Positions 8,990-24,198 of a stretch of 34,359 nt of DNA are shown in pieces. The stretch covers positions 1 to 34,359 of the forward strand of contig DASTUJ010000098.1 of assembly GCA_035759705.1 (NCBI GenBank). Direction: 5' to 3'. Within the stretch, counting starts at the first letter, position 1, and each line of letters begins with the position of its first letter. The translations under genes were made by a program, and so were the position numbers. The notes below the pieces were generated by a model. The model searched no databases and was not told where the DNA came from. It saw nothing but the letters and a program-made list of their open reading frames with translations. Source of the stretch: Actinomycetota bacterium. Its GTDB lineage: Bacteria > Actinomycetota > CADDZG01 > JAHWKV01.

Positions 8990-9037
8990 CCGGGAACAAA
9001 TCTTTTACTCCGCCGTAACGGCCTCCTCATTGGGGCG

Positions 9038-9060
9038 TAACAACCGGCAAATAGGTTGTT
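9038..9060. promoter_or_regulatory. Inverted repeat upstream of the Rieske-narK genes
   Basis: AACAACC (9039-9045) and GGTTGTT (9054-9060) are perfect complements around the 8-base A/T-rich centre GGCAAATA. It lies about 48 bases before the Rieske start, where an operator is expected. TTTCGTGAAA (9081-9090) is a second small palindrome nearer the gene. It does not match FNR (TTGAT-N4-ATCAA), so the regulator is unknown. Confidence 0.45.
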
Positions 9061-9107
9061 TACATGACTCCAAACGTTCCTTTCGTGAAACGCGCCGGGC
9101 TGGCCGC

Positions 9108-9509
9108 ATGAGCGAGCTCACGACGACAACCTCAGCACCCCCCGGCTTTTTTGCCGTTGCCCGGATTGGGGATGTTCCTTCGGGATGGGTGCTGCGCACC
9201 TCGGCCGGCGGGCGCGACGTCGCCCTGTCGAACGTCGACGGCGAGTTCTACGCCCTCGACAACTCGTGCACCCACGCCGGCGGCCCGCTGGCGCCCAACC
9301 GGCTCAGCCCGGCCTGCACGCTCGAGTGCCCGTGGCACAACTCGATTTTCGATTCCCGCACCGGCGACGTGGTCTCCGGACCGGCGCTAAAGCCGGCCAA
9401 GACCTACCCGGTTGAGGTCCACGAGGGGACGGTTTACGTGTCGGTCGACCTCAAAAAGCCGGCTCCGGTGCCCGCCGGCCCCCCGCCGGTCGCATCCACC
9501 GGCGGATAA
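9108..9509 (+). CDS. Soluble Rieske [2Fe-2S] ferredoxin
   Basis: A 133-residue cytoplasmic protein. After about 13 polar residues comes a Rieske domain with both ligand boxes, CTHAGG (near 58-63) and CPWHNSIFD (near 78-86), giving two Cys and two His for one [2Fe-2S] cluster. The CPWH box without the extra disulfide cysteines marks the low-potential dioxygenase-ferredoxin/NirD type and not the cytochrome bc type. The last 15 residues are a Pro-rich tail. The ATG at 9108 is chosen over an in-frame TTG at 9030, which would add a basic tail before the domain. The next gene is a NarK transporter 58 bases away on the same strand, so a role with nitrite reduction is plausible, but no nirB is present in the window. 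Confidence 0.88.
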   Translation: MSELTTTTSAPPGFFAVARIGDVPSGWVLRTSAGGRDVALSNVDGEFYALDNSCTHAGGPLAPNRLSPACTLECPWHNSIFDSRTGDVVSGPALKPAKTYPVEVHEGTVYVSVDLKKPAPVPAGPPPVASTGG

Positions 9510-9567: not shown

Positions 9568-10959
9568 TTGGCGATGAAGAAGACCTGGATAGAGGACTGG
9601 GACCCCGAGGACCAGGTCTTTTGGGAGCAGAAGGGCCGCTTCGTCGCCCGCAGGAACCTGGTCTTCTCGATCTTCGCCGAGTTCCTGGGCTTTTCCATCT
9701 GGGTGCTGTGGAGCATCAGCGCCGCCCACCTGAACCGCGCCGGCTTCAACTTCACCACCAGCCAGCTGTACACGCTGGTCGCAGTGCCGGCGCTGGTCGG
9801 CGCCACCGTGCGCATCCCCTACACGCTGGCCGTCGCCAGGTTCGGGGGCCGGAACTGGACCGTGGCAAGCGCCCTGCTGCTCCTGCTTCCCATCTCGCTG
9901 CACGGCCTGATGGTCACCAACCCCTCCACCCCGTTCTGGCTGTTCCTGATCGGCGGCGCGGTGGCCGGGCTCGGCGGGGGCAACTTCGCCTCGAGCATGT
10001 CGAACATCTCGCACTTCTATCCCGACAGGAAGAAGGGCCTCGCCCTCGGGATCAACGCCGCCGGGGGCAACCTGGGGGTCGCGGTCTCGCAGGGCCTCAC
10101 GCCGCTGGTAATCGGATGGGGGTGGCTCGCGGTCGCCGGCGGGGCCCAGAACTCAAGCGCGCTGTTCCTGCAGAACGCCGGGCTGCTGTGGGTGCCCTTC
10201 ATCCTGGCATCGGCGCTCGGGGCGTGGCTCTTCATGGACAACCTGAGGGTCGCCAAAGCGTCGTTTCGTGAGCAGGTCGGAGTGATGAAACGCAAGAAGA
10301 CGTGGGCGATCACCCTGCTGTACGTGGCGACCTTCGGCTCGTTCGTCGGTTACTCCGCCGGGCTGCCGCTGCTGATGAAGACCGAGTTCCCCGGCGTGAA
10401 CCTGTCGCTCGCCTTCCTGGGGCCGCTGGTCGGCGCGCTGGCCCGGCCCTTGGGAGGCATGCTGGCCGACCGGATGGGCGGGGCCCGCCTCACCTTCCGC
10501 ACGCTGGTTGGAATGCTCCTGGCCACCTGCGGGCTGATCGTGTGCCTGTCGAACAAGACCAGCCCCGACGTCTTTCCGATCTTTCTCGGAATCAGCGTCC
10601 TGCTGTTCGCCTTCACCGGATTGGGCAACGGGGCCGCTTACCAGATGATCCCCACGACGCTCCGGGCGCTCCACCTGAAGAAGGCTCAGGGCGAGGGGCC
10701 GGCCGCCAAGGTGCTGGCGCTCAAGCAGGCGAAGATCGAGACCTCCGCAGCGGTCGGCTTCATCGGAGCGGTCGGCGCCTACGGCGGCTGGATGATCCCG
10801 CAGACCTTCGGCCTATCGATCTCCTTGACCGGGGCGCCCTTCCGGGCGCTCGAGCTGATCATGGGCCTGTATCTCGTCTGCCTCGCAGTCCTGTGGACCG
10901 GCTTCTTGCGTCCCGAGCGGGCACTGGCAAGCGGCCGCCTGGCGGAGGCGGAAGCCTAG
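9568..10959 (+). CDS. narK: NarK-family nitrate/nitrite transporter
   Basis: A 463-residue major facilitator with about 12 membrane segments. The N-terminus WDPEDQVFWEQKGR followed by ARRNLVFSI is typical of NarK. The nitrate signature lies around GLGGGNFASSMSNISHFYP (first half), followed by GLALGINAAGGNLGVAVSQ, and the matching second-half region is FTGLGNGAAYQMIP. These glycine-rich stretches line the nitrate/nitrite path in the family. AGGAGG at 9556-9561 is 6 bases before a TTG at 9568 and 12 before the ATG at 9574; I use the TTG, a two-residue difference. It probably shares a transcript with the Rieske gene. It would import nitrate, or exchange nitrate for nitrite, for the molybdoenzyme encoded about 8 kb downstream. 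Confidence 0.93.
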   Translation: MAMKKTWIEDWDPEDQVFWEQKGRFVARRNLVFSIFAEFLGFSIWVLWSISAAHLNRAGFNFTTSQLYTLVAVPALVGATVRIPYTLAVARFGGRNWTVASALLLLLPISLHGLMVTNPSTPFWLFLIGGAVAGLGGGNFASSMSNISHFYPDRKKGLALGINAAGGNLGVAVSQGLTPLVIGWGWLAVAGGAQNSSALFLQNAGLLWVPFILASALGAWLFMDNLRVAKASFREQVGVMKRKKTWAITLLYVATFGSFVGYSAGLPLLMKTEFPGVNLSLAFLGPLVGALARPLGGMLADRMGGARLTFRTLVGMLLATCGLIVCLSNKTSPDVFPIFLGISVLLFAFTGLGNGAAYQMIPTTLRALHLKKAQGEGPAAKVLALKQAKIETSAAVGFIGAVGAYGGWMIPQTFGLSISLTGAPFRALELIMGLYLVCLAVLWTGFLRPERALASGRLAEAEA

Positions 10960-11091: not shown

Positions 11092-13365
11092 ATGGCCAAG
11101 ACCCAGGCACCCTCAGAGATCGAAGCTGCCGGAAGCAAGTTCCAAACCGACGCCGTCCCCGATCCATTCGACGAACGGGACCTCGAGTACCGGGCCCGCC
11201 TCCAGCCCCTGCCGCCCTCGCTGGACTGCCGACCGGCGGACCGGGCGGTCATGAAGCAGAAGGGCAGCAGCTGCACCGGTCACGCCCTGGCTGCAGTCAT
11301 CAACTCGGTGTACTCGGCCCCCTGGAGGGACGACCCCCAGCTGGCGGGGAAGCCGCCCCGGGTCAGCCCCTACATGCTGTACCACCTCGCCCGGCGCTAC
11401 GACGAGTTCGACGGTGAGGAGGACATCGGCTCGTCCCTCCGGGGCGCCCTGAAGGGCTGGTTCTACCACGGGGTGGTCCGGGAGTCTAAGTGGCGGAGCC
11501 TCAAAAGCCACAACGCCGCCATGCTGGACGACGAGGACTTCCGCCGCCTGGCCGGCGAGCACCCACTGGGCGCGTTCTACCGGGTGAACGCTTTCCGGCT
11601 TGACGACATGCAGTCCGCCATCAACGAGCTGCAGGGCATCTGCTGCTCGGCCGCGGTCCACAGCGGCTGGAAGGAGCCTCAGCTCCTCAAGCAGGGCGAC
11701 CGAAAGCTGAACGTCATCCTGCGGCCCGGCCGCCTGGACAACCTGGGGGGCCACGCCTTCGCCATAGTCGGCTACAACGAGGTCGGGTTCCTCGTCCAGA
11801 ACTCCTGGGGAACCGAGTGGGGCGCCAAGGGCTTCGCAACCCTCCCCTACGACGACTGGCTCGACTCCGCATGGGACGCCTGGGTCGCCCGGCCCGGTGT
11901 TCCGAAAACCCCCTCCTACCGGGGCCGGACCAACGCGGTGACCACGACCGGCGAGGTCGGCACGGCGCCGGGGCCGGACCTTATTCGCCTGCAAAACCAC
12001 GTTGTCAACATCGGCAACAACGGCCGGCTGTCGGCCCGGGGCAAGTTCGCCAGCACCCCGGAGCAGGTCGACAAGATCTTCAACCACATGAAGGAGCGCC
12101 ACGACCAGTGGCGCAAGGATCGGCCGGCCGAACCGCTGCGGATCGTCTTCTACGCCCACGGGGGCCTCAACAGCGAGTCGACGGGCCTGAAGATCGCAAG
12201 CCAGCACCGGGGGTGGTGGCTGAACAACCACGTTTACCCGGTGTACTTCGCCTGGCAGAGCGGGGCGGTCGAAACCATGCTCAACCAGCTCACCGACCTG
12301 GCCGAAGGCTGGCTCCCGTTCGGGGTCCGGGGCTTCGACGCCCTGGAGGCGTTCGACGCGCTGGTGGAGAGGGGCGCCCGCCGCATCTTCCGGGGGACGT
12401 GGAACGAGATGAAGGAGAACGCCACGATGGCCTCGAGCGGCGAGAAGACCACGAACTACAGGTGGCCTCCCGGCCCGAAGGACTCGGACGCCATGACGCA
12501 GGCGCCGGCGGGAACCCTCACGGTCCACCGGCTGGCCAAGTACATCGGCGATCAAGCCGCCCCGTGCGAGGTGCACCTGGCCGGGCACAGTGCCGGGTCG
12601 ATCTTCCTGGCCGAGTTCCTTCAGCGGCTGGATGCGGCTAAGGTCCCGGTTGCCTCGGTCAACTTCCTGGCGCCGGCTCTTCGGGTCGACGAGTTCAAGA
12701 GGAAGGTGCTCCCGACCATCGGAAAGACGGTCGAACGCCTGACGGTGATCGGCCTGAACAAAGAGGCGGAGCTCGACGACGTCTGCGGCACCGAGAACCA
12801 CGACATCTACCACAAGTCCCTGCTTTACCTGGTCTCGCGTGCGCTTGAGGAGGGTGACGCCGAGGTGCCCCTGCTGGGCATGGAGAAGTTCATGGAAAAG
12901 CCGATCGGGGGCGGCAAGACACTCGAGGAAGCGATCGAGACGAAGGGAGGCGCTTGTATCTTCGCCCCGACGAACGCCGACGCCGCGGAGAACAGCCGGT
13001 CGAACGCCGGCACCCACAGCGGGATGGACGACGACTCGCCCACCATGACCTCCGTCATGTTGCGGGTGCTGAACGCCCAGGTCGCCACCGATGAGATGAA
13101 ATACCGGTCCTCGACGCCGGAGAAGCTGCCGTTGCAGCCGTCCGGCGCGGTGTCGGTGCCCGCAGCGCCGCGGGTCAAAAAGGGAGAGGTTCTGGAGGAG
13201 GCCCAGCCGGCAGCGGCTAACGTCGAGTCGGACGGAGGGGTTCAGGACGTCTCGGTCGCCCCGGCTGGAAAGTTGCAGACACCGAGCCCGGTGGAACTGA
13301 TGCTTGCGAACCTGGGGTGGAGCAGGGCATCGAAGATGGAGGAGAACCCGGCGGTGAAGACCTAA
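11092..13365 (+). CDS. Papain-fold cysteine peptidase fused to an alpha/beta hydrolase
   Basis: A 757-residue protein with two enzyme folds. Residues 35-270 are a C1 (papain) peptidase: nucleophile Cys61 in KQKGSSCTGHALAAV (the usual QGxCGSCWAF is altered), His221 in GGHAFAIVGYNE and Asn237 in QNSWGTEWGAKG. Residues 345-600 form an alpha/beta hydrolase with an oxyanion HGG at 356-358 (FYAHGGLNSES), nucleophile Ser500 in GHSAGS, and a possible His in ENHDIYHKS. From about 615 to 757 it is mostly low-complexity and acidic. There is no signal peptide or membrane segment, so it looks cytosolic or exported by a non-Sec route. GAAAGGAG precedes the ATG. It overlaps the end of the convergent gene by 4 bases. 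Substrate unknown; both active sites look intact. Confidence 0.85.
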   Translation: MAKTQAPSEIEAAGSKFQTDAVPDPFDERDLEYRARLQPLPPSLDCRPADRAVMKQKGSSCTGHALAAVINSVYSAPWRDDPQLAGKPPRVSPYMLYHLARRYDEFDGEEDIGSSLRGALKGWFYHGVVRESKWRSLKSHNAAMLDDEDFRRLAGEHPLGAFYRVNAFRLDDMQSAINELQGICCSAAVHSGWKEPQLLKQGDRKLNVILRPGRLDNLGGHAFAIVGYNEVGFLVQNSWGTEWGAKGFATLPYDDWLDSAWDAWVARPGVPKTPSYRGRTNAVTTTGEVGTAPGPDLIRLQNHVVNIGNNGRLSARGKFASTPEQVDKIFNHMKERHDQWRKDRPAEPLRIVFYAHGGLNSESTGLKIASQHRGWWLNNHVYPVYFAWQSGAVETMLNQLTDLAEGWLPFGVRGFDALEAFDALVERGARRIFRGTWNEMKENATMASSGEKTTNYRWPPGPKDSDAMTQAPAGTLTVHRLAKYIGDQAAPCEVHLAGHSAGSIFLAEFLQRLDAAKVPVASVNFLAPALRVDEFKRKVLPTIGKTVERLTVIGLNKEAELDDVCGTENHDIYHKSLLYLVSRALEEGDAEVPLLGMEKFMEKPIGGGKTLEEAIETKGGACIFAPTNADAAENSRSNAGTHSGMDDDSPTMTSVMLRVLNAQVATDEMKYRSSTPEKLPLQPSGAVSVPAAPRVKKGEVLEEAQPAAANVESDGGVQDVSVAPAGKLQTPSPVELMLANLGWSRASKMEENPAVKT

Positions 13366-13667
13366 CCGGCGGCGCTCTCGTTCGCCAGGGTGGTCAGCGC
13401 GGGGGCAAGCTCGGTTTGCGCCGGCACGGGGATGGCCCGGGAAACGGGGGCCTTCCAGAAACCGATGGCCAGGACGAAGCCGACCATCTGGAACATGAGG
13501 ATCCCGCCGAGGGAGGCGCCTTCGGCCCACGCTTCGATCGCCGTGGTCAGAGCCCAGAGCTCGGCCATGACAATGGTTGCAACCAGGACGATACGGCGGT
13601 CGAGGTGCGCCGCCTCGGCGCGGTAGGCGGCTTCGGGGGTGGTGTGGTCGTCTCTCGAATCGAACAT
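13362..13667 (-). CDS. Small two-helix membrane protein, unknown
   Basis: A 101-residue protein: a charged start (MFDSRDDHTTPEAAYRAEA), two hydrophobic segments (IVLVATIVMAELWALTTAIEA and GGILMFQMVGFVLAIGFW), and an Ala/Pro-rich soluble tail. It resembles small uncharacterised actinobacterial membrane proteins, but I do not recognise a family. The ATG at 13667 is the only good start. Its stop overlaps the end of the peptidase-hydrolase gene tail to tail. The gap 13668-13882 upstream (215 bases) shows short G/C hairpins and a GGTTTAACC palindrome but no promoter I would defend. Confidence 0.65.
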   Translation of the reverse strand: MFDSRDDHTTPEAAYRAEAAHLDRRIVLVATIVMAELWALTTAIEAWAEGASLGGILMFQMVGFVLAIGFWKAPVSRAIPVPAQTELAPALTTLANESAAG

Positions 13668-14425: not shown

Positions 14426-14805
14426 CCCCCTTCGCCCGCAAGGTCGCCTACGCCCTCGGGCTCAGCCGGGTGGTTATCGGCAGCGCTGCCGTCCTGGCGC
14501 CCGGGCGAGCGATGAACTTCTGGCTGGGGGTCGACCACGAGCCGAAGTCGGTGAAGGCCATGGGGATCGCGATCGGCGCCCGGGACCTGGCCCTCGGAAT
14601 CGGGTCGCTGGTCGCGCTCAGCCGGGACAGCGGCAGCGCGGTGTGGCTGCAGGTCGGCGTCCTTGCCGACACGGCTGACGCCCTGGCTACTGTCCGGGCA
14701 TTCTCGGCCGACCTCCGGAACCCGCGGGTGGCCGTTGCGGCATCGGGGGTCTGCGGCGCAGCGGTCGGTGCCTGGCTGGCGCAGCAGGCGAGCAGCTCGC
14801 GGTGA
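14422..14805 (+). CDS. Small membrane protein (DUF4267-like), unknown
   Basis: A 127-residue protein with about four short hydrophobic segments (YALGLSRVVIGSAAVLAP, AIGARDLALGIGSLVAL, WLQVGVLADTADALATV, VAVAASGVCGAAVGAWLA). The pattern resembles DUF4267 membrane proteins; this is a weak assignment. The start is GTG at 14422, overlapping the preceding TGA as GTGA, and its own TGA overlaps the next GTG in the same way. The three genes are therefore translationally coupled, and the two small membrane proteins may anchor or serve the FAD enzyme that follows. Confidence 0.65.
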   Translation: MTPFARKVAYALGLSRVVIGSAAVLAPGRAMNFWLGVDHEPKSVKAMGIAIGARDLALGIGSLVALSRDSGSAVWLQVGVLADTADALATVRAFSADLRNPRVAVAASGVCGAAVGAWLAQQASSSR

Positions 14806-16460
14806 GCGACCCGGACGCGATAGTCATCGGCGCCGGGCCGAACGGCCTGGTGGCCGCCAACTACCTGGCGGACGAAGGGTGGGACGTGCTGGTCCTGGAG
14901 GCGCAGGCGACCCCTGGAGGGGCGGTCAAGAGCGGCCCCCTGACCGGCAACCCGGCGTTCGTCCACGACCTGTTCAGCGCCTTCTACCCGTTCGCGGTCG
15001 CCTCCCCGGCGATAACCGCCCTGCGACTCGAGGAGCACGGACTCAGGTGGCGGTGCGCCCCGCTGGCGGTCGCCCACCCGATGCTCGACGGCCGGTGCGC
15101 CGTTCTGTCGGACAAGCTGGAGGAGACGGTCGCGTCGCTGGAGTCGTTCGCCGAAGGAGACGGCGAGGCCTGGCGTGGGATGTACCGGGTGTGGGAGGAG
15201 GTGGGCGAGGACCTGGTCCGGATACTGCTCGGCTCGTTCCCCCCGGCCGCCGCCGCCGCCCGCCTGGCCGCCAGGCTCGGGCCCTCCCGGCTGCTCCGCC
15301 AGACCCGCTTCTGGACCCTCCCCATCCGCCGGATGTGCGAGGAGAGCTTCAAGTCGCAGGAGGCAGGCCTGCTTCTGGCAGGCAACGCGCTGCACGCCGA
15401 CATCCCACCGGAGGTGCCGGGAAGCGGCTTCCTGGGGCTGCTGTTGTGCTCCCTGGGCCAGCAGTTCAACTTCCCGGTGCCCGAAGGCGGCGCCGGAAAC
15501 CTCTCCGGGTCGATGGTTCGCCGGCTGGAGGCCCGCGGGGGCCGGGTGGTCTGCAACGCCCGGGCCCACCGGGTCGACATCCGCAAGGGCCGCGCGGTCG
15601 GCGTCACCACCGCCGACGGGACCCGCCACCGCGCCCGCCGGGCGGTCCTGGCCGACGTCGCGGCACCGGCGCTGTACCTCAGCCTGGTCGGCGAGTCGCA
15701 CCTGCCGGCCCAACTGCTGGACGACCTGCACCACTTCCAGTTCGACAATGGGACGGTGAAGGTCGACTGGGCGCTGGACGGACCGATCCCGTGGCGCGCC
15801 GAGCAGGCGAAAAGGGCCGGAACCGTCCACGTCGCCGACGGCATGGACCACCTGACCGAGTCGTCCGCTCAGCTGGCGATGGGCAAGATCCCGGGGCAGC
15901 CATACCTGGTGCTCGGGCAGATGAACGTCGCCGACCCAACCCGGTCGCCCAAGGGCACCGAGACGGTGTGGGCGTACACCCACGTCCCGCAGCAGATCCG
16001 GGGCGACTGCGGAGGCGACATCACCGGAAAGTGGGACGACAACGAAACCCAGCAGTACCTGGAGCGAGTCGAGAACGAGGTGGAGAAACACGCCCCGGGC
16101 TTCCGGGACCGGATAACCGGCACCTTCGTGAGGACCCCTCCGATGTTCGAGCAGGCGAACGAGAACCTGGTCAACGGCGCCCTCGGCGGCGGCACCGCCC
16201 AGCTTCACCAGCAGGTGGTCTTCCGGCCGACGCCCGGCATGGCGGGGGCGCGGACACCGGTCAAGGGGCTGTACCTGGCCTCGGCGTCGGCCCACCCGGG
16301 AGGCGGGGTCCACGGCGCCCCCGGAGCCAACGCGGCAAAAACCGCCCTGCGGGATCACATGGTGAAGAGGCTGGCGCCCTACGGAGCGGCCGGGGTCGGC
16401 GGGGCGGCGGTCAGCCGGCTTTGGCTGCGGACTCGGGGCCCGGGGCGGTCTCCCGGATAA
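14802..16460 (+). CDS. FAD-dependent oxidoreductase, phytoene desaturase (CrtI)/PYROXD2-like
   Basis: A 552-residue flavoprotein. Residues 5-30 are the ADP-binding Rossmann motif (IVIGAGPNGLVAANYLADEG, then VLVLEA), and HPGGGVHGAPGANAAKTAL near the C-terminus is the closing FAD-binding stretch of the CrtI-type family. Members desaturate, isomerise or oxidise lipophilic substrates such as carotenoids and quinone-like compounds; no phytoene synthase or other carotenoid gene is present, so the substrate is open. No membrane segment is obvious. The start is GTG at 14802, overlapping the previous stop. The last 16 codons run antisense to the end of the SRPBCC gene (50-base convergent overlap), and this Arg/Gly-rich tail is probably not part of the fold. 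Confidence 0.85.
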   Translation: MSDPDAIVIGAGPNGLVAANYLADEGWDVLVLEAQATPGGAVKSGPLTGNPAFVHDLFSAFYPFAVASPAITALRLEEHGLRWRCAPLAVAHPMLDGRCAVLSDKLEETVASLESFAEGDGEAWRGMYRVWEEVGEDLVRILLGSFPPAAAAARLAARLGPSRLLRQTRFWTLPIRRMCEESFKSQEAGLLLAGNALHADIPPEVPGSGFLGLLLCSLGQQFNFPVPEGGAGNLSGSMVRRLEARGGRVVCNARAHRVDIRKGRAVGVTTADGTRHRARRAVLADVAAPALYLSLVGESHLPAQLLDDLHHFQFDNGTVKVDWALDGPIPWRAEQAKRAGTVHVADGMDHLTESSAQLAMGKIPGQPYLVLGQMNVADPTRSPKGTETVWAYTHVPQQIRGDCGGDITGKWDDNETQQYLERVENEVEKHAPGFRDRITGTFVRTPPMFEQANENLVNGALGGGTAQLHQQVVFRPTPGMAGARTPVKGLYLASASAHPGGGVHGAPGANAAKTALRDHMVKRLAPYGAAGVGGAAVSRLWLRTRGPGRSPG

Positions 16461-17881: not shown

Positions 17882-18304
17882 CTACTCCTCAGTGCCGACC
17901 GCGTAGACCCCGTCGGCACGTTCCTCCAGCCGGATCTTCGGCAGCGGCCGGGGCGGCGGCCCGGCGACGACCTCCCCGGTGCGCTCGTTGAAGATGCCCT
18001 TGTGGCAGGGGCACTCCAGCACTCCCTCTTCCCGGCGCCAGAGGACGGCGCAGGACAGGTGGGTGCAAACCGACGAGAACGCCACCAGCTCCCCGTCGTT
18101 CAACCGCATGGCGATCACGGGGTCGTCATCGCCCGGGTAGGAGAAGGTCACCATCTTTCCCTTGCCCACCGAGCCGGCCACCAGCTTTGCGGGACCGGCG
18201 CCGGCGCCGTGGCGGCGGAAGACGCCCGATGCCAGCCCTGCGGTCCCGATCAGAAGCCCGCCCGATGCGATCACCAGCATCCGCAGGTAGTCCCGCCGGG
18301 ACAT
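17882..18304 (-). CDS. Tat-exported Rieske [2Fe-2S] protein of cytochrome bc type
   Basis: A 140-residue protein with a twin-arginine start (SRRDYLRMLVIASGG) and one hydrophobic segment to about residue 28, probably uncleaved as a membrane anchor. The Rieske boxes are CTHLSC (80-85) and CPCHKG (98-103): ligands Cys80, His82, Cys98 and His101, with Cys85 and Cys100 as the disulfide found in high-potential quinol-oxidising Rieske proteins. AGGGAGG precedes the ATG at 18304. It is the last gene of the cytochrome b/NarB-like operon, 53 bases after the ferredoxin gene. The Tat signal places its cluster outside the membrane, whereas the catalytic subunit has no export signal. It is quite different from the soluble Rieske protein at 9108. 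Confidence 0.9.
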   Translation of the reverse strand: MSRRDYLRMLVIASGGLLIGTAGLASGVFRRHGAGAGPAKLVAGSVGKGKMVTFSYPGDDDPVIAMRLNDGELVAFSSVCTHLSCAVLWRREEGVLECPCHKGIFNERTGEVVAGPPPRPLPKIRLEERADGVYAVGTEE

Positions 18305-18357
18305 GAGCCCTCCCTCCTTGAGTCGCTTCTCCCGGCTCTCCGGGGGCCGGGTGGCGG

Positions 18358-18957
18358 TCACACCTTCTCCTCGGAAAGAAACTCGTTCCACACGCTGTAG
18401 CCCCCGGGGATCACGTCCTCGCCCCCGGCCGGCGCCACCAGCGCGTTGCCGGTGACCACGCTCTGGTTGCCGAAGTCGAAGACGTCGATCGCCTTGGCCG
18501 ACGGGCGCTTCGCGACCAGCTCGTCGTAGGTGCCGTAGAACAGGGCATCGGTCGGGCAGACCGAAGCGCACATCGGCAGCAGTCCCTGCGAGCTGCGGTC
18601 GTAGCAGAGGTCGCACTTGTACTGGAGCATCTCGGGGATGTCGAGCTTGGGGACCCCGAACGGGCAGGCGTGGACACAGTTGCCGCAGCCGATGCACAGC
18701 TCGGGCGAAGCGGTCCCCACCACCCCGTCGGTGCCGACCGGGATCGCGTCGACCGGGCAGACCTGGGCGCAGGGGGCGACCGGGTCCGAACAGTGCATGC
18801 AGACGGTGGGCATGGCGGCGGCCGAGTTGCCCATGTCGACGTAGTCGAGGTGGATCATCGAGCGGCCTTTGTGGGAGTCGCACTCCCGGCACGCCGCGAC
18901 ACACGCCTGGCACCCGATACACCGGCCCGGGTCGATGAACAGCGCTTTTTTCCTCAT
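18358..18957 (-). CDS. Four-[4Fe-4S] ferredoxin subunit (DmsB/NrfC-like)
   Basis: A 199-residue electron-transfer subunit with no export signal. Four cysteine groups are visible: CIGCQACVAAC (13-23), CMHCSDPVAPCAQVC (from 53), CIGCGNCVHAC (from about 88) and CDLCYDRSSQGLLPMCASVC (from about 116). This is the four-cluster pattern of DmsB, NrfC and formate dehydrogenase beta subunits. It would pass electrons between the membrane cytochrome and the molybdenum subunit. The start ATG at 18957 overlaps the TGA of the catalytic gene as ATGA. About 55 C-terminal residues beyond the last cluster (SAKAIDVFDFGN and onward) have no recognisable motif. Confidence 0.92.
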   Translation of the reverse strand: MRKKALFIDPGRCIGCQACVAACRECDSHKGRSMIHLDYVDMGNSAAAMPTVCMHCSDPVAPCAQVCPVDAIPVGTDGVVGTASPELCIGCGNCVHACPFGVPKLDIPEMLQYKCDLCYDRSSQGLLPMCASVCPTDALFYGTYDELVAKRPSAKAIDVFDFGNQSVVTGNALVAPAGGEDVIPGGYSVWNEFLSEEKV

Positions 18958-21227
18958 CCTCGGCCGGTTCCCCTTCCCTGCGGCGCCGACGGCTGCCGCT
19001 TGTCGAATGCTCCGACCTCCTCGTAGACCTGGCCGCCCGGCGGGACCGGGGGCGCCGGGGGGATGTCGATCTCGGTCCCCATCTCGATCCGGCACGAGCA
19101 CACCTTGAACTCGGGGATTTTCGACGTCGGGTCCAGGGCGTCGACGGTCATCAGGTTGGCCGCCACCCGGCCCGCCCAGTGGTAGGGGATGAAGACGGTG
19201 TCCGGGCGGATGGTCGACACCACCAGGGCCGGGTAGGTCGCCGACCCCCGGCGGGTGCTGACCTTCACCGGGTCCCCGTTGACGTAACCCAGGCTCGGGT
19301 GGACCTCCACCCACGGGCGGGGCGTCTGCTGGACGAGGGCGTCGATCCTGCGGGTCTGGTTGCCCGACAGGTAGTGGGCGACGGTGCGTCCGGTGGTCAG
19401 CTTCAGCGGGTACTTGGAGTCGACCTCCTCCGCCGGCGGGCGCCACTCGACGGCGTGGAATCGGGCCAGGCCGTCCGGGTGGTGGAAGCGCTCCTCGAAG
19501 AGGCGAGGCGTGCCCGGGTGGTCCTCGGAGGGGCATGGCCAGAAGATCCCGCCGGTCTCCTCGATCCGCTCGTAGGTCATGCCCGAGTAGTCGGCCTGGC
19601 CGCCCTTGGAGGCGATCCGCAGCTCCTCGAAGATCTCCCGGGAGCTTTCGAACCCGAACTTGTCGGCGTGGCGGCCCAGGCGCCGCGCGATCTCGCAGAC
19701 GATCCACCAGTCCGGCCTGGCGTCGCCTGGAGGGTCGGAGGCCTTGTTGTACTTGACCACCCGGCCCTCGGCGTTGGTCGAGATGCCCTCGTCCTCGGCC
19801 CACGAGGTGCCGGGGAGCACGACGTCGGCCCGGTCGCAGGTCTCGGAGAGGAAGAAGTCGATCTGGCAGTGGAACTCCAGGCTGTCGAAGCCCCCGGCGA
19901 TGCGGCCGGCGGACGGCATCGACACGATCGGGTTGTTGCAGATGCCGAGCCACCCCTTGATCTCGCCGGCTTCGGCCTGGTGAACCATCTCGACCGCCGA
20001 AGTGCCGGCCCGGGGAAGCTCGTCGTCGGTGATCCCCCACACCTTGCAGATGTGCTCCCGGGCGGCCGGGTCCTCGATCATCCGCTGGCCGGGAAGCTGG
20101 TCCGACTTCTGGCCGTGCTCCCGCCCGCCCTGGCCGTTGCCCTGGCCGGTGATCGTGCCGTAGCCCTTGCCGGGGGCCCCGAACTGGCCGGTGGCCAGGC
20201 ACAGGTTGATGACGGTCAGGCAGTTGTCGACGCCCTGGATGTGGTGCTCGATCCCCCGGGCGTGGAAGGCCATCGCCTTGTTCGCTCGTCCCCAGGTGAG
20301 GCCGACCTTCTCGATGAGCGCCGGGTCCAGCCCGCAGATCTCGCCGGTCTTCTCCGGGGTGTAGAAGGGAAGCCCGGCCTTGACCGCGTCCCAGCCCGTG
20401 GTCCGGGAGCGGATGAACTCGGTGTCGACCAGGCCCTCCCGTGCGATCACGTGCAGCACGCCGTTCAGGAACGCGGCGTCGGTGCCCGGCCGGACCGGGA
20501 CGTGGATGTCGGCGGTGCGGGCGATCGGGGTCTCCCGGGGGTCGACGGTGATCAGCTTGGCTCCTGAGTCGCGGGCCCCCCAGAAGTACTGGGTGGCGAC
20601 CGGGAAGCACTCCCCCACGTTGGCGCCGAGCAGCATGATGACGTCGGCCTCCAGCATGTCGGACCACGGGTTGGCCGCCCGGTCGACGCCGAATGCCTTC
20701 TTGTTGGCGGCGGCGGCCGAGACCATGCAGAGGCGCCCGTTGTAGTCGACGTGTTTGGTCGCCAGCGCCACCCGGGCGAACTTGCCCATCAGGTAGCACT
20801 TCTCGGTGGCCAGGCTGGAGCCGGAGTAGACGGCGAAAGCGTCGTTGCCGTAGGTCTTCTGGATCCGGCGGATTTCGCTGACCACCCGGTCCAGGGCCTC
20901 GTCCCAGGTGACCTCCCGAAGCGGGTCGCCCCGGCGGTCCCGCATCAGGGGCTTGGTCAGCCGGTCCCGGTGGTTGACCTGCTGGTAGGCCGTCACCCCT
21001 TTGGGGCAGAGCTTCAGCTTGTTGATGTCGTGGTTGCGAGGCTCGACGCCGAAAACCTTGCCGTCGGAGGAGACCCTGAGGTACATGCCGCACTGCACGC
21101 CGCAGTAGCAGCAGTGGGTGGCAACCATCGTCTCGCCCCGCTCCGCCGAGACGTAGTTGCCGGGGCGGTTTTTCTCCTTGCGGAAGGCGGCGACCCCGGG
21201 GGCAAGGATCTGCAGTTGTTTTCTCAT
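18954..21227 (-). CDS. NarB/NasA-like molybdopterin oxidoreductase, catalytic subunit
   Basis: A 757-residue bis-MGD enzyme, most likely a nitrate reductase. An N-terminal [4Fe-4S] site is formed by Cys39, Cys42, Cys46 and Cys74 (CCYCGVQCG, then LKLCPKG). Cys167 in GRLCMVSAA lines up with the molybdenum ligand region of NapA/NarB and with the selenocysteine of FdhF. MGD-binding stretches include IMLLGANVGEC and ITVDPRETPIARTADIH. The C-terminal domain has TTGRTVAHYLSGNQTRR and, near the end, DPTSKIPEFKVCSCRIE, close to the assimilatory NarB/NasA pattern. No Tat or Sec signal, so cytoplasmic. A formate dehydrogenase-like activity is the alternative, but narK and the NarB-like C-terminus favour nitrate. 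The ATG at 21227 shares one base with the cytochrome gene's stop (TGATG); an ATGA overlap joins it to the ferredoxin gene. Confidence 0.88.
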   Translation of the reverse strand: MRKQLQILAPGVAAFRKEKNRPGNYVSAERGETMVATHCCYCGVQCGMYLRVSSDGKVFGVEPRNHDINKLKLCPKGVTAYQQVNHRDRLTKPLMRDRRGDPLREVTWDEALDRVVSEIRRIQKTYGNDAFAVYSGSSLATEKCYLMGKFARVALATKHVDYNGRLCMVSAAAANKKAFGVDRAANPWSDMLEADVIMLLGANVGECFPVATQYFWGARDSGAKLITVDPRETPIARTADIHVPVRPGTDAAFLNGVLHVIAREGLVDTEFIRSRTTGWDAVKAGLPFYTPEKTGEICGLDPALIEKVGLTWGRANKAMAFHARGIEHHIQGVDNCLTVINLCLATGQFGAPGKGYGTITGQGNGQGGREHGQKSDQLPGQRMIEDPAAREHICKVWGITDDELPRAGTSAVEMVHQAEAGEIKGWLGICNNPIVSMPSAGRIAGGFDSLEFHCQIDFFLSETCDRADVVLPGTSWAEDEGISTNAEGRVVKYNKASDPPGDARPDWWIVCEIARRLGRHADKFGFESSREIFEELRIASKGGQADYSGMTYERIEETGGIFWPCPSEDHPGTPRLFEERFHHPDGLARFHAVEWRPPAEEVDSKYPLKLTTGRTVAHYLSGNQTRRIDALVQQTPRPWVEVHPSLGYVNGDPVKVSTRRGSATYPALVVSTIRPDTVFIPYHWAGRVAANLMTVDALDPTSKIPEFKVCSCRIEMGTEIDIPPAPPVPPGGQVYEEVGAFDKRQPSAPQGRGTGRG

Positions 21228-22291
21228 CAGAACCCCGCCTTTACCCGGTCTCTGTACTGGGCGCCCCGGGCGATGCGCTTGCACGCCGGGCAGGTTTCGA
21301 CCCAGCCGGCGTAGTCCAGGCCGAGCTCGTTCATGGTCCTCTGGAGGTCGCTCACGAACACGGCGCCCTCGATCCCGGCCCCGCACTCCCGGCATGCGAG
21401 CGCTCCGCCCGAGGCCAGCGACGCCTGCTTGTGCAGGTGGACGCCGATCATCGCCGGGCGCTGGATCGTGTGAAAGAACTTGCCGAACGGGATCCAGACC
21501 AGCGTAAGGACCACGGTGCACATGTGGATGAACGCCAGCGGCTGGTAGGCGAACCCGTCCATCAGCGCGCTGGAAACCGTCAGGAGCAGCCCGGTGACCG
21601 AGATGGCGATCAAAGCCAGCAACGGCAGCAGGTCCCGGCCGAACCGGGTGAGGTTGTTTCCCCGCTCGGTCCAGCGTTTGTGGAGGAACCAGGCCCCGCC
21701 TCCGATGACCAGCACGGCGGAGAAGTTCAGCCCGTGGAACATCATCCAGCCAACGATGCCCAGAGCATCGATCTTGATCGTGCGGACGCCGTTCATGTAG
21801 ATCCAGTAGAGGCTTTCGGTGCCCGCCACCGCCCGGAAGTGGATGAAGCCGAAGGTCAGCGGAAAGGTGATCAGCGTCGCCGATATCACTCCCCAGAACA
21901 GGCCCTGGTGGGCCAGCCAGCGGGCGGTGCTACGTTCGGCGATGAACCGCTGCAGCAGAAGGGTCGACACCACAGTTTTGGGCACCTCGGACTTCGGCAG
22001 GTCGGGGCCGGGCTTGAGAATCGCCTTCCACCCCCGCAGCAGGTAGCGCCGGGCGGCCGGGCTCTGCGCCCAAAGAACCGTGCGGTAGGCGACGCCGAAC
22101 CCCAGGAAGATGGTGCCGATCGCATAGCCGAGCAGGGCGACGTCGAAGTTGTCCAGGTTGCGGCTGCCGGCCAGAATCGCAACCGTCAGAATCAGCGCGG
22201 CGGCGGCTCCCGCGGTCAGGGCACCCCGGTTCCGGGACGGCGCAACCGGGAAGGAGGGGGACGCGGGACGGGAGATCGGGTGGTCGCTCAC
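21227..22291 (-). CDS. Membrane cytochrome b subunit with a C-terminal four-cysteine domain
   Basis: A 354-residue integral protein with about six membrane segments (25-42, 48-70, 128-150, 176-200, 221-242, 250-271). His128, His186, His256 and His274 lie at or near the ends of helices 3, 4 and 6, as expected for two b-type hemes in NarI/DsrM-like quinol oxidoreductase anchors. After the last helix comes a cytoplasmic domain with Cys300-Cys303 (CRECG) and Cys334-Cys337 (CPACK), a CxxC pair of pairs able to hold zinc or an iron-sulfur cluster. The start is GTG at 22291. It opens the operon and would exchange electrons between the quinone pool and the ferredoxin and Rieske subunits. Exact family uncertain. 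Confidence 0.78.
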   Translation of the reverse strand: MSDHPISRPASPSFPVAPSRNRGALTAGAAAALILTVAILAGSRNLDNFDVALLGYAIGTIFLGFGVAYRTVLWAQSPAARRYLLRGWKAILKPGPDLPKSEVPKTVVSTLLLQRFIAERSTARWLAHQGLFWGVISATLITFPLTFGFIHFRAVAGTESLYWIYMNGVRTIKIDALGIVGWMMFHGLNFSAVLVIGGGAWFLHKRWTERGNNLTRFGRDLLPLLALIAISVTGLLLTVSSALMDGFAYQPLAFIHMCTVVLTLVWIPFGKFFHTIQRPAMIGVHLHKQASLASGGALACRECGAGIEGAVFVSDLQRTMNELGLDYAGWVETCPACKRIARGAQYRDRVKAGF

Positions 22292-22402: not shown

Positions 22403-22990
22403 ATGGACAAAGTGACCGGGCCGCACGGCCTTCTGCTGACCGGCGGGACGTCGCGCCGAATGGGCGAGGACAAAGCCCGGTCGGCGGTCGGCGGGGTCCC
22501 CATGGGGACGCTGGCCGGGACGGCCCTGCTGGAAGCGGCCTCCCCGGTGCTTTGCGTGGGACCGGACCCGGGGCTGGGCCTGGAAACCGTCGAGGACGAC
22601 CGCCGGGGTCCCCTGGCTGCGCTGGCGATCGGGATGAGGCGCCTGGCCGGCACAGGATTCGGCGGGCCGGTGCTCCTGGTGGCGTGCGACATGCCCTTTC
22701 TCACCGCCGGCCTGCTGAAGCTGGTGGCATCGGAGCTGGGGGGCGCCCAGGCGGCAGTACCCGTGTCGGGAGGCCGCCTTCAGCCCCTGGCCGCCTGCTA
22801 CGCCGCAAGCGTGCTGCCGCTGGCCGAGAGGCTGGTTGCCGCCGGCCGGCTTTCCATGGGAAGCCTTCTGGACGAGATCGAGGTCAAGGAGGTCGACCAG
22901 CAGAGCTGGAGCCACCTCGCCGGCCCTGCGGCGCTGACCGACGTCGACACCCCGGCCGAACTGCGGGCGGCCAACGAGGCGATCCGTTGA
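22403..22990 (+). CDS. mobA: Molybdenum cofactor guanylyltransferase MobA
   Basis: A 195-residue cytoplasmic enzyme that attaches GMP to molybdopterin, making the MGD form required by the NarB-like enzyme next door. The nucleotide-binding loop is LLTGGTSRRMGEDKA (about 11-25), followed by EDDRRGPLAAL (64-74) and the metal-binding CDMPF (95-99). The C-terminal DVDTPAELRAA is also typical. Length is normal for MobA. It is divergent from the cytochrome b operon and overlaps moeA by four bases (TTGA). The palindrome over its ribosome site suggests control of translation or transcription. Confidence 0.93.
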   Translation: MDKVTGPHGLLLTGGTSRRMGEDKARSAVGGVPMGTLAGTALLEAASPVLCVGPDPGLGLETVEDDRRGPLAALAIGMRRLAGTGFGGPVLLVACDMPFLTAGLLKLVASELGGAQAAVPVSGGRLQPLAACYAASVLPLAERLVAAGRLSMGSLLDEIEVKEVDQQSWSHLAGPAALTDVDTPAELRAANEAIR

Positions 22991-24198
22991 GGCCTCTTCT
23001 TTCGATCGAGCAGTACCGACAGAGCATTCTGGAACGCATCCCGGAGCCCCGGCCGGTAACCGTCCCCCTGGACACGGCATACGGCTGCGTGCTGGCAGGC
23101 CGGCTGGCCTCGCCCCACGACCTGCCCGCTTTCCCCTCCTCTGCGATGGACGGCTACGCCGTGCGAAGCGCGGACATCGCCGCAGCCGCCGAGGGGGTTC
23201 CGGTTTCGCTGCAGATCGAGGGTGAGGTCCGGATGGGGAGCGCCCCACACGCCGAGGTGCTCGAGGGCCGGGCCGTGGCCGTACCGACCGGCGGCATGCT
23301 GCCTGAGGGGGCCGACACCGTCGTCCCGGTCGAGGAGTGCCGGGTCGAGGGGGGCGCCGTATGGTTCTGCGTCCCCTCCCGTCCGGGCCGCAACGTCCGC
23401 CCGGCAGGCGAGGACCTTCTGGCGGGCGAGCTCGTGGTCGAGGCGGGGCGGCGCGTGGAAGCCGCCGACCTCGGCGCCCTGGCCGCGGCGGGGTTCGCAG
23501 AGGTCGCGGTCTACCGCACCCCGAGGGTGGTCGTCTTCTCCACCGGGAACGAGCTGGTGGAGGGCGGCGGGGATACCGGGCCGGGCCAGATCCACGAATC
23601 GAACTCGTTCATGCTGCGGGCACTCGTTCGCCGGGCCGGGTGCGAAGCGACCTACGCCGGGCGGGTGCCGGACGACCCGGGCGCGCTGCTCCGGGCGCTG
23701 GAAGCCGCTCCGCCCGGAGACGTCCTCCTGTGTTCGGGCGGCGTGTCGGCAGGCCGGGATGACCCCGTCCGGCGGGCGTTCGAGGGCAGGGAAGAGGTGG
23801 GCTGCGTGCAGGTTTCAGTCCAGCCCGGCCGCCCGCAGGCGTTCGGAGTATTCCGTGACAAGCCGTTCTTCGGCCTGCCGGGCAACCCGATGGCGTCGCT
23901 GGTGTCCTTCGAGCTGTTCGTCCGTCCCGCCCTGAAGAAGATGATGGGCCTCCCACCAACGGTCGACTACCTGAACGCCACCCTGGACGGCGCCCTGGAG
24001 GCTGCGCCGGCATCCGTGCGGTTCGTGCCGGTACGGCTGACGGAGTCCGGACCACAACTGATTGCGTGCAGCAGGGAGCAGCGCCGCTCCAATCAGCTGG
24101 CAAAGCTGGCGCAGTCCGACGGCATGGCCGAGGTGCCGCCGGGCGCCGGGCTGAACGCAGGAGAGCCGGTGAGAGTACTCTCGATTCGAGAGTGGTAA
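22987..24198 (+). CDS. moeA: Molybdopterin molybdenumtransferase MoeA
   Basis: A 403-residue enzyme that inserts molybdate into adenylylated molybdopterin. MoeA marks are SSAMDGYAV (51-59), VVFSTGNELV followed by GQIHESNS, the loop CSGGVSAGRDD, and FFGLPGNPMASLVSFELF. The start is taken as TTG at 22987, overlapping the mobA TGA; this gives the family length, and the sequence RPLLSIEQYRQSIL is a normal MoeA beginning. No fused MogA domain. With MobA it supplies cofactor to the divergently encoded molybdoenzyme. A short hairpin (24190-24212) overlaps the stop but has no T-run. Confidence 0.94.
   Translation: MRPLLSIEQYRQSILERIPEPRPVTVPLDTAYGCVLAGRLASPHDLPAFPSSAMDGYAVRSADIAAAAEGVPVSLQIEGEVRMGSAPHAEVLEGRAVAVPTGGMLPEGADTVVPVEECRVEGGAVWFCVPSRPGRNVRPAGEDLLAGELVVEAGRRVEAADLGALAAAGFAEVAVYRTPRVVVFSTGNELVEGGGDTGPGQIHESNSFMLRALVRRAGCEATYAGRVPDDPGALLRALEAAPPGDVLLCSGGVSAGRDDPVRRAFEGREEVGCVQVSVQPGRPQAFGVFRDKPFFGLPGNPMASLVSFELFVRPALKKMMGLPPTVDYLNATLDGALEAAPASVRFVPVRLTESGPQLIACSREQRRSNQLAKLAQSDGMAEVPPGAGLNAGEPVRVLSIREW

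Follow-up and report, generated by a model that had tools for sequence, protein, structure and literature searches.

A four-gene operon of an actinobacterial contig raises the question of how a cytochrome b, a molybdoenzyme, a four-cluster ferredoxin and a Tat-signalled Rieske protein could work as one enzyme, and what that enzyme would reduce. The window (the whole stretch of DNA analysed, 34 359 nucleotides) comes from a 3.0 Mb genome in 225 contigs, the nearest named relatives of which are uncultured Actinomycetota. The original prediction, made from the sequence alone, proposed a nitrate reductase coupled to the membrane, possibly an undescribed quinol:nitrate oxidoreductase design.

Locus and gene set

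The features of the window are listed in Table 1. The four coupled genes span 17882–22291 on the minus strand, as originally predicted, with stop–start overlaps of 1–4 bases: the end of the cytochrome b gene and the start of nas share base 21227, nas ends at 18954 and fdx starts at 18957, and fdx ends at 18358 with the Rieske frame starting at GTG 18361 (alternative start ATG 18304).

Table 1. Features of the window, with strand and basis of identification.
Feature	Position	Strand	Description
Soluble Rieske-type ferredoxin	9030–9509	+	HcaC/NirD-like; beside NarK
NarK-type nitrate/nitrite transporter	9574–10959	+	NarU model 405 bits, TIGR00886 287 bits, both below cut-off
Two-helix membrane protein	13362–13667	−	DUF6755-like by similarity; no Pfam match in the window
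Rieske	17882–18361	−	Tat-signalled disulfide-type Rieske [2Fe-2S] protein
fdx	18358–18957	−	Ferredoxin-type, four [4Fe-4S] motifs, no signal peptide
nas	18954–21227	−	NasC-like Mo-bisPGD catalytic subunit of nitrate reductase, no signal peptide
Cytochrome b	21227–22291	−	Membrane subunit with six helices and two predicted b haems; probable remote NarI relative; CxxC...CxxC tail predicted inside
MobA-like gene	22403–22990	+	Molybdenum cofactor gene, divergent from the operon; named from sequence
MoeA molybdenum insertase	22987–24198 (start approximate)	+	MoeA_N, MoCF_biosynth and MoeA_C domains

Conservation and distribution

In a sample of the phylum the cytochrome b was encoded in 22 of 397 Actinomycetota genomes (15 of 237 genera). 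The order cytochrome b–nas–fdx–Rieske was found in 21 of the 22 loci from the 21 other genomes of this sample; in the remaining one (L036) a contig end truncates the locus. Frame breaks were present in one locus of the sample (L046). A named collection of 84 980 species genomes was also scanned and gave 394 relatives, the best 80 of which were examined as loci; 71 of these 80 were Streptomyces or [Kitasatospora] records. The gene order was kept in 77 of the best 80, the remaining three (L058, L068 and L133) ending early. In both samples the order is kept in every locus with a long enough contig. Among 72 556 plasmids the cytochrome b was encoded in four, all from Deinococcus; all four hold the full cassette with NarK beside it. 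The cytochrome b of these plasmids is annotated as an MFS transporter (L134 7820–8932, L139 6820–7932, L158 5705–6817 and L159 5820–6932).

Each of the four proteins gives a tree that divides in the same way into two types, and the Deinococcus sequences fall next to the second. A genome from the window's genus (G104) carries one complete cassette of each type (L032 and L053); its second cassette groups with the Deinococcus type and has HPP downstream. The four-gene arrangement is not due to chance: the order recurs down to about 40–55% protein identity. The gene-order search proposed with the original prediction thus found the order kept in Actinomycetota and Deinococcus alike, and the Rieske gene is conserved with the other three; given the common split in all four trees and the kept order, it belongs to the unit.

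Catalytic subunit

The best NCBIfam model for the catalytic subunit was NasC, with 792 bits (765–792 bits among cassette members), which is below the 1100-bit equivalog cut-off. The Fdh-alpha model TIGR01591 gave 599 bits, and formate dehydrogenases were the top matches among PDB sequences. The subunit is neither of the NarG type (TIGR01580, 46 bits against a cut-off of 1084) nor an AioA (TIGR02693, 159 bits against a cut-off of 359).

Because formate dehydrogenases head the PDB matches, the active-site residues were compared. The window's protein has the molybdenum ligand Cys167 followed by Met168, and Thr-Gly-Gln; all 16 aligned members have NGR(L/M)CM at the molybdenum ligand and TGQ...GGRE at the position of the catalytic arginine of formate dehydrogenase. 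Cys-Met together with Thr-Gly-Gln is common to cassette members, NapA, NasA and NasC in the alignment, whereas the four formate dehydrogenases aligned have CH or CQ with RGQ or RGH, the formate dehydrogenase motifs being CQ/RGH and CH/RGQ-H (PMC8808070). In the tree the cassette members form one clade (100/99) that is sister to NirB-linked NasC (100/100), with formate dehydrogenases apart (100/100) and Nap likewise outside this grouping. Identity as a formate dehydrogenase was rejected on the active-site residues and the tree, despite the strong HMM and PDB matches. The predicted nitrate reductase identity was borne out by the same two lines of evidence, and the suggested tree placed the subunit next to NirB-linked NasC with no grouping with formate dehydrogenases. 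Only one other PF00384 protein was found in the window's genome, and it has residues of the formate dehydrogenase type; judged by sequence, the cassette is thus the only evident nitrate reductase of the PF00384 superfamily in this genome.

No twin-arginine (Tat) signal was found in the sequence of the catalytic subunit. Cysteine content was tried as a marker of localization and gave no decision; the exported NapA and AioA also have 4–9 non-cluster cysteines.

Cytochrome b subunit

The cytochrome b has the predicted six hydrophobic segments, which the helices of the AlphaFold model match (mean pLDDT 78), and the predicted four-cysteine tail (CxxC...CxxC), which is invariant. His128, His256 and His274 are invariant and His186 is present in 21 of 23 sequences. 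In the other two (L038 and L047), which have otherwise intact operons, position 186 of the window numbering, the proposed outer haem ligand, is Arg, and a haem may be lost or altered there. Positive charge lies at the N-terminus, in the helix 2–3 loop and in the C-terminal tail; the two termini are accordingly predicted to be inside.

Profile alignment (hhalign) with Escherichia coli NarI paired His256 and His274 with NarI His187 and His205 (E = 6.8e-5, one pair), which have haem roles in NarI; NarI His66 has no counterpart. A profile search of PDB sequences returned NarI alone (E = 0.005). PF02665 (NarI-type) had no Pfam match in the window, and the Deinococcus proteins reached E = 6e-4, below the cut-off. 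With the model, Foldseek returned nothing below E = 0.001, the best match being EtfD (E = 0.02) and NarI scoring E = 0.29. A bc-type cytochrome b was rejected: PF00033 matches only contigs C138 and C19 of the genome and not the window. By these sequence comparisons the subunit is probably a remote NarI relative, and it is not of the bc type. The resemblance to a bc complex suggested in the original prediction accordingly stands for the Rieske protein alone; the cytochrome b is NarI-like and not a homologue of the bc subunit (PF00033).

Ferredoxin and Rieske subunits

The ferredoxin subunit has the 16 cluster cysteines of the predicted four clusters and is FDH-beta/DmsB/HybA-like. Of 76 loci, 74 encode a Rieske protein with RRDY as its twin-arginine motif and the other two have RRGF. 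The ligands Cys99, His101, Cys117 and His120 and the disulfide pair Cys104/Cys119 are invariant in 14 sequences. The box reads CPCHxGxF in place of CPCHGSxY, so its Ser and Tyr are missing. The effects of both residues on the potential of the Rieske cluster are known, and a potential lower than that of the mitochondrial Rieske protein would be expected from the sequence. The prediction of a high-potential, disulfide-bearing protein therefore holds for the Tat signal and the disulfide; for the potential it probably needs correction. The sequences support an outward Rieske protein and a catalytic subunit with no Tat signal, as predicted. In a fold comparison of the Rieske model (pLDDT 85), AioB accounted for ten of the top 11 matches (E = 2e-8 to 5e-8); by sequence, Thermus Rieske and AioB were level.

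Gene neighbourhood and a probable fifth part

In all 54 full-length Streptomyces loci and all four Deinococcus plasmids the gene directly 3′ of the Rieske gene encodes a small two-helix protein. It is DUF6755 (PF20540; Pfam or RefSeq) in Deinococcus, and its Pfam score in Streptomyces is below the cut-off. The DUF6755-like frame of the window is separated from the Rieske gene by other genes. The DUF6755-like protein is probably a fifth part. A different small two-helix protein takes its place after the Rieske gene in at least one type-B locus (L052 5688–5897). In the window a CrtO/CrtI-like carotenoid oxidoreductase (14802–16460) lies between the operon and the probable fifth gene, and a frame of 757 residues with a weak papain-type peptidase match (11092–13365) lies between NarK and the DUF6755-like gene.

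Of the 22 sampled Actinomycetota loci, 17 have NarK or HPP nearby, and all four Deinococcus loci have NarK nearby. Among the full-length Streptomyces loci NarK is present in 26–27 of 54, depending on the setting, and 27 of 54 have no NarK within about 9 kb. NirB is within reach in 10 or 11 of these 54, and some Streptomyces loci contain NirB–NirD as well as NarK. In three loci of the window's genus the cassette adjoins a gene for a NirA-like sirohaem protein; in same-genus genomes the HcaC/NirD-like ferredoxin gene is next to a NirA-like gene, and in the window's genome the NirA-like protein is on another contig, with a Rieske-type partner. HPP, identified by Pfam, is 3′ of the operon in many loci; PMC7438415, citing Maeda 2014, describes HPP as a nitrite transporter. 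The MobA-like gene is kept beside the operon in four related genomes.

In 27 of 54 full-length Streptomyces loci (for example L086 5626–8839) the genes directly upstream of the cassette encode pyruvate formate-lyase and its activating enzyme, which hints that these aerobes use the cassette in a programme for oxygen limitation.

Proposed function

The cassette is probably a membrane-bound quinol:nitrate oxidoreductase with the molybdenum site inside, electrons crossing the membrane through the b haems and the Rieske protein outside. The gene set and its conservation, the type of active site, the topology signals, the pattern of haem ligands and the neighbours can be read from the sequences; quinol as the donor, the electron path and energy conservation are what we infer. 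Menaquinol would be oxidized close to the outer surface of the NarI-like cytochrome b, and its electrons would cross the membrane by an outer (His186/His256) and an inner (His128/His274) b haem. The four ferredoxin clusters would then relay them to the NasC-like subunit with its [4Fe-4S] cluster and Mo-bisPGD, where nitrate would be reduced to nitrite in the cytoplasm. With protons released outside and electrons moving inwards, energy would be conserved by analogy with NarGHI. NarK or HPP would carry nitrate and nitrite, and nitrite would be reduced to ammonium by NirBD or NirA-like enzymes. The Rieske protein, anchored by its Tat signal, would lie outside by the quinol site, where it could take part in quinol oxidation or serve as a second point of electron entry or exit; alternatively, it may be a structural or regulatory partner. 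Its role is the least certain element of the model, and one that we infer throughout.

The active site, the tree and the NarK/HPP and nitrite reductase neighbours argue for a nitrate reductase, the adjacent MoeA and MobA-like genes were counted in favour of a nitrate oxidoreductase, and the NarI similarity, with matching ligands and inside-positive loops, in favour of the role given to the cytochrome b. Against the model count the remoteness of the NarI similarity, the absent counterpart of NarI His66, the Arg at position 186 in two of 23 sequences and the 27 of 54 Streptomyces loci in which NarK is missing. NarGHI, moreover, functions with no Rieske protein, so its presence here needs a separate reason. 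A less probable reading is a quinol oxidase that bifurcates on a NarI-type scaffold, in which one electron of each quinol goes to the outer Rieske protein and one through the b haems to the inner NasC-type reductase; a split like that of the bc complex would then have evolved separately from the bc cytochrome b.

A different topology was considered, in which the catalytic subunit and ferredoxin are exported on the Tat signal of the Rieske protein as in AioAB, so that nitrate reduction takes place outside and HPP or NarK brings the nitrite in. The Rieske fold is closest to AioB, and in two AioAB loci the twin-arginine motif is on AioB with none on AioA; as only the Rieske subunit is Tat-signalled there, the catalytic part here could also be outside. 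The HPP gene 3′ of the operon in many loci, described as encoding a nitrite transporter (PMC7438415), would suit such import. This arrangement is nevertheless unlikely: the bulky positive regions of the cytochrome b, its inner haem ligands and a conserved IPFGKxFH..QRP motif are on the predicted inside, as in NarI, the partner of which, NarH, is inside, and the NasC relatives are cytoplasmic.

Electrons might instead come from the outer side, where the bc complex or a c-type or copper protein would reduce the Rieske cluster and this in turn the outer b haem, with quinol oxidized elsewhere. The outward position and likely intermediate potential of the Rieske protein would fit, separate bc complexes are encoded in the window's genome, and a Rieske/cytochrome b route to nitrate reductase has been proposed for archaea (PMC4683180). 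We consider this route improbable, as NarI-like subunits are quinol oxidases and incidental inspection of the examined loci revealed no gene for a cytochrome c or cupredoxin. A formate dehydrogenase or related enzyme, which the Fdh-alpha score, the PDB matches and the pyruvate formate-lyase genes adjoining half of the Streptomyces operons would favour, is highly improbable, since Met and Thr replace its His and Arg in every aligned member, the tree sets it apart with full support and the neighbours are NarK and nitrite reductase.

If the quinol:nitrate oxidoreductase reading is right, a way of reducing nitrate with an assimilatory-type enzyme, probably with energy conservation, has been overlooked in many Streptomyces and other soil actinobacteria, and the line between nitrate assimilation and respiration is blurred. 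The cassette genes have so far been annotated generically. The pairing of a Rieske protein with a NarI-type cytochrome b would make it possible to test whether quinol can be bifurcated away from the bc scaffold, and with culturable hosts, including Deinococcus with plasmid-borne genes, the reading is testable now.

Comparison with known systems

The cassette shares a Tat-signalled disulfide-type Rieske protein with the cytochrome bc complex but has no bc-type cytochrome b (PF00033). Arsenite oxidase (AioAB) resembles it in having the closest Rieske fold, the Tat signal on the Rieske subunit and the same enzyme superfamily; AioA, however, has no Cys ligand, and AioAB is an oxidase outside the membrane with neither a cytochrome b nor a four-cluster subunit.

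A Rieske protein and a cytochrome b beside nitrate reductase genes are not new: haloarchaeal nar operons encode the Rieske protein NarB and the cytochrome b NarC, for which a Q-cycle was proposed (PMC2483277), as in pNar of Haloferax mediterranei, where they accompany NarGH. NarC, with nine helices, is not homologous to NarI, and NarB was not co-purified with NarGH (PMC7754194). The NarG of pNar is exported with a Tat signal of its own, whereas the cassette catalyst is NasC-type with no RR motif, and the membrane families differ. No description of the present gene combination was found in the literature searched, mostly outside subscription journals; any novelty of design, as suggested in the original prediction, would lie in this combination and not in the pairing of Rieske protein and cytochrome b.

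With NasC/NasA/NarB (Bacillus NasC; Paracoccus NasC–NasG–NasB) the cassette has in common the catalytic family, the active site, the lack of a signal peptide and the NarK and NirBD/NirA neighbours. Known Nas donors are NADH via NasB/NasG, ferredoxin or flavodoxin (PMC2483277, PMC3475470); in Paracoccus, NasC works with the Rieske-type NasG and the NADH-linked NasB (PMC3475470). In the cassette a cytochrome b, a four-cluster subunit and a Tat-signalled Rieske protein replace the soluble partner.

NarGHI differs in its catalyst, NarG standing in the place of a NasC-type subunit with a Cys ligand; the cassette also has a CxxC tail on the anchor and an added Rieske and DUF6755-like protein, and no narJ was noticed near the operon. 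In the proposed model the two have in common the wiring, a NarI-like di-b-haem anchor, a four-cluster relay and a molybdenum site predicted to be inside.
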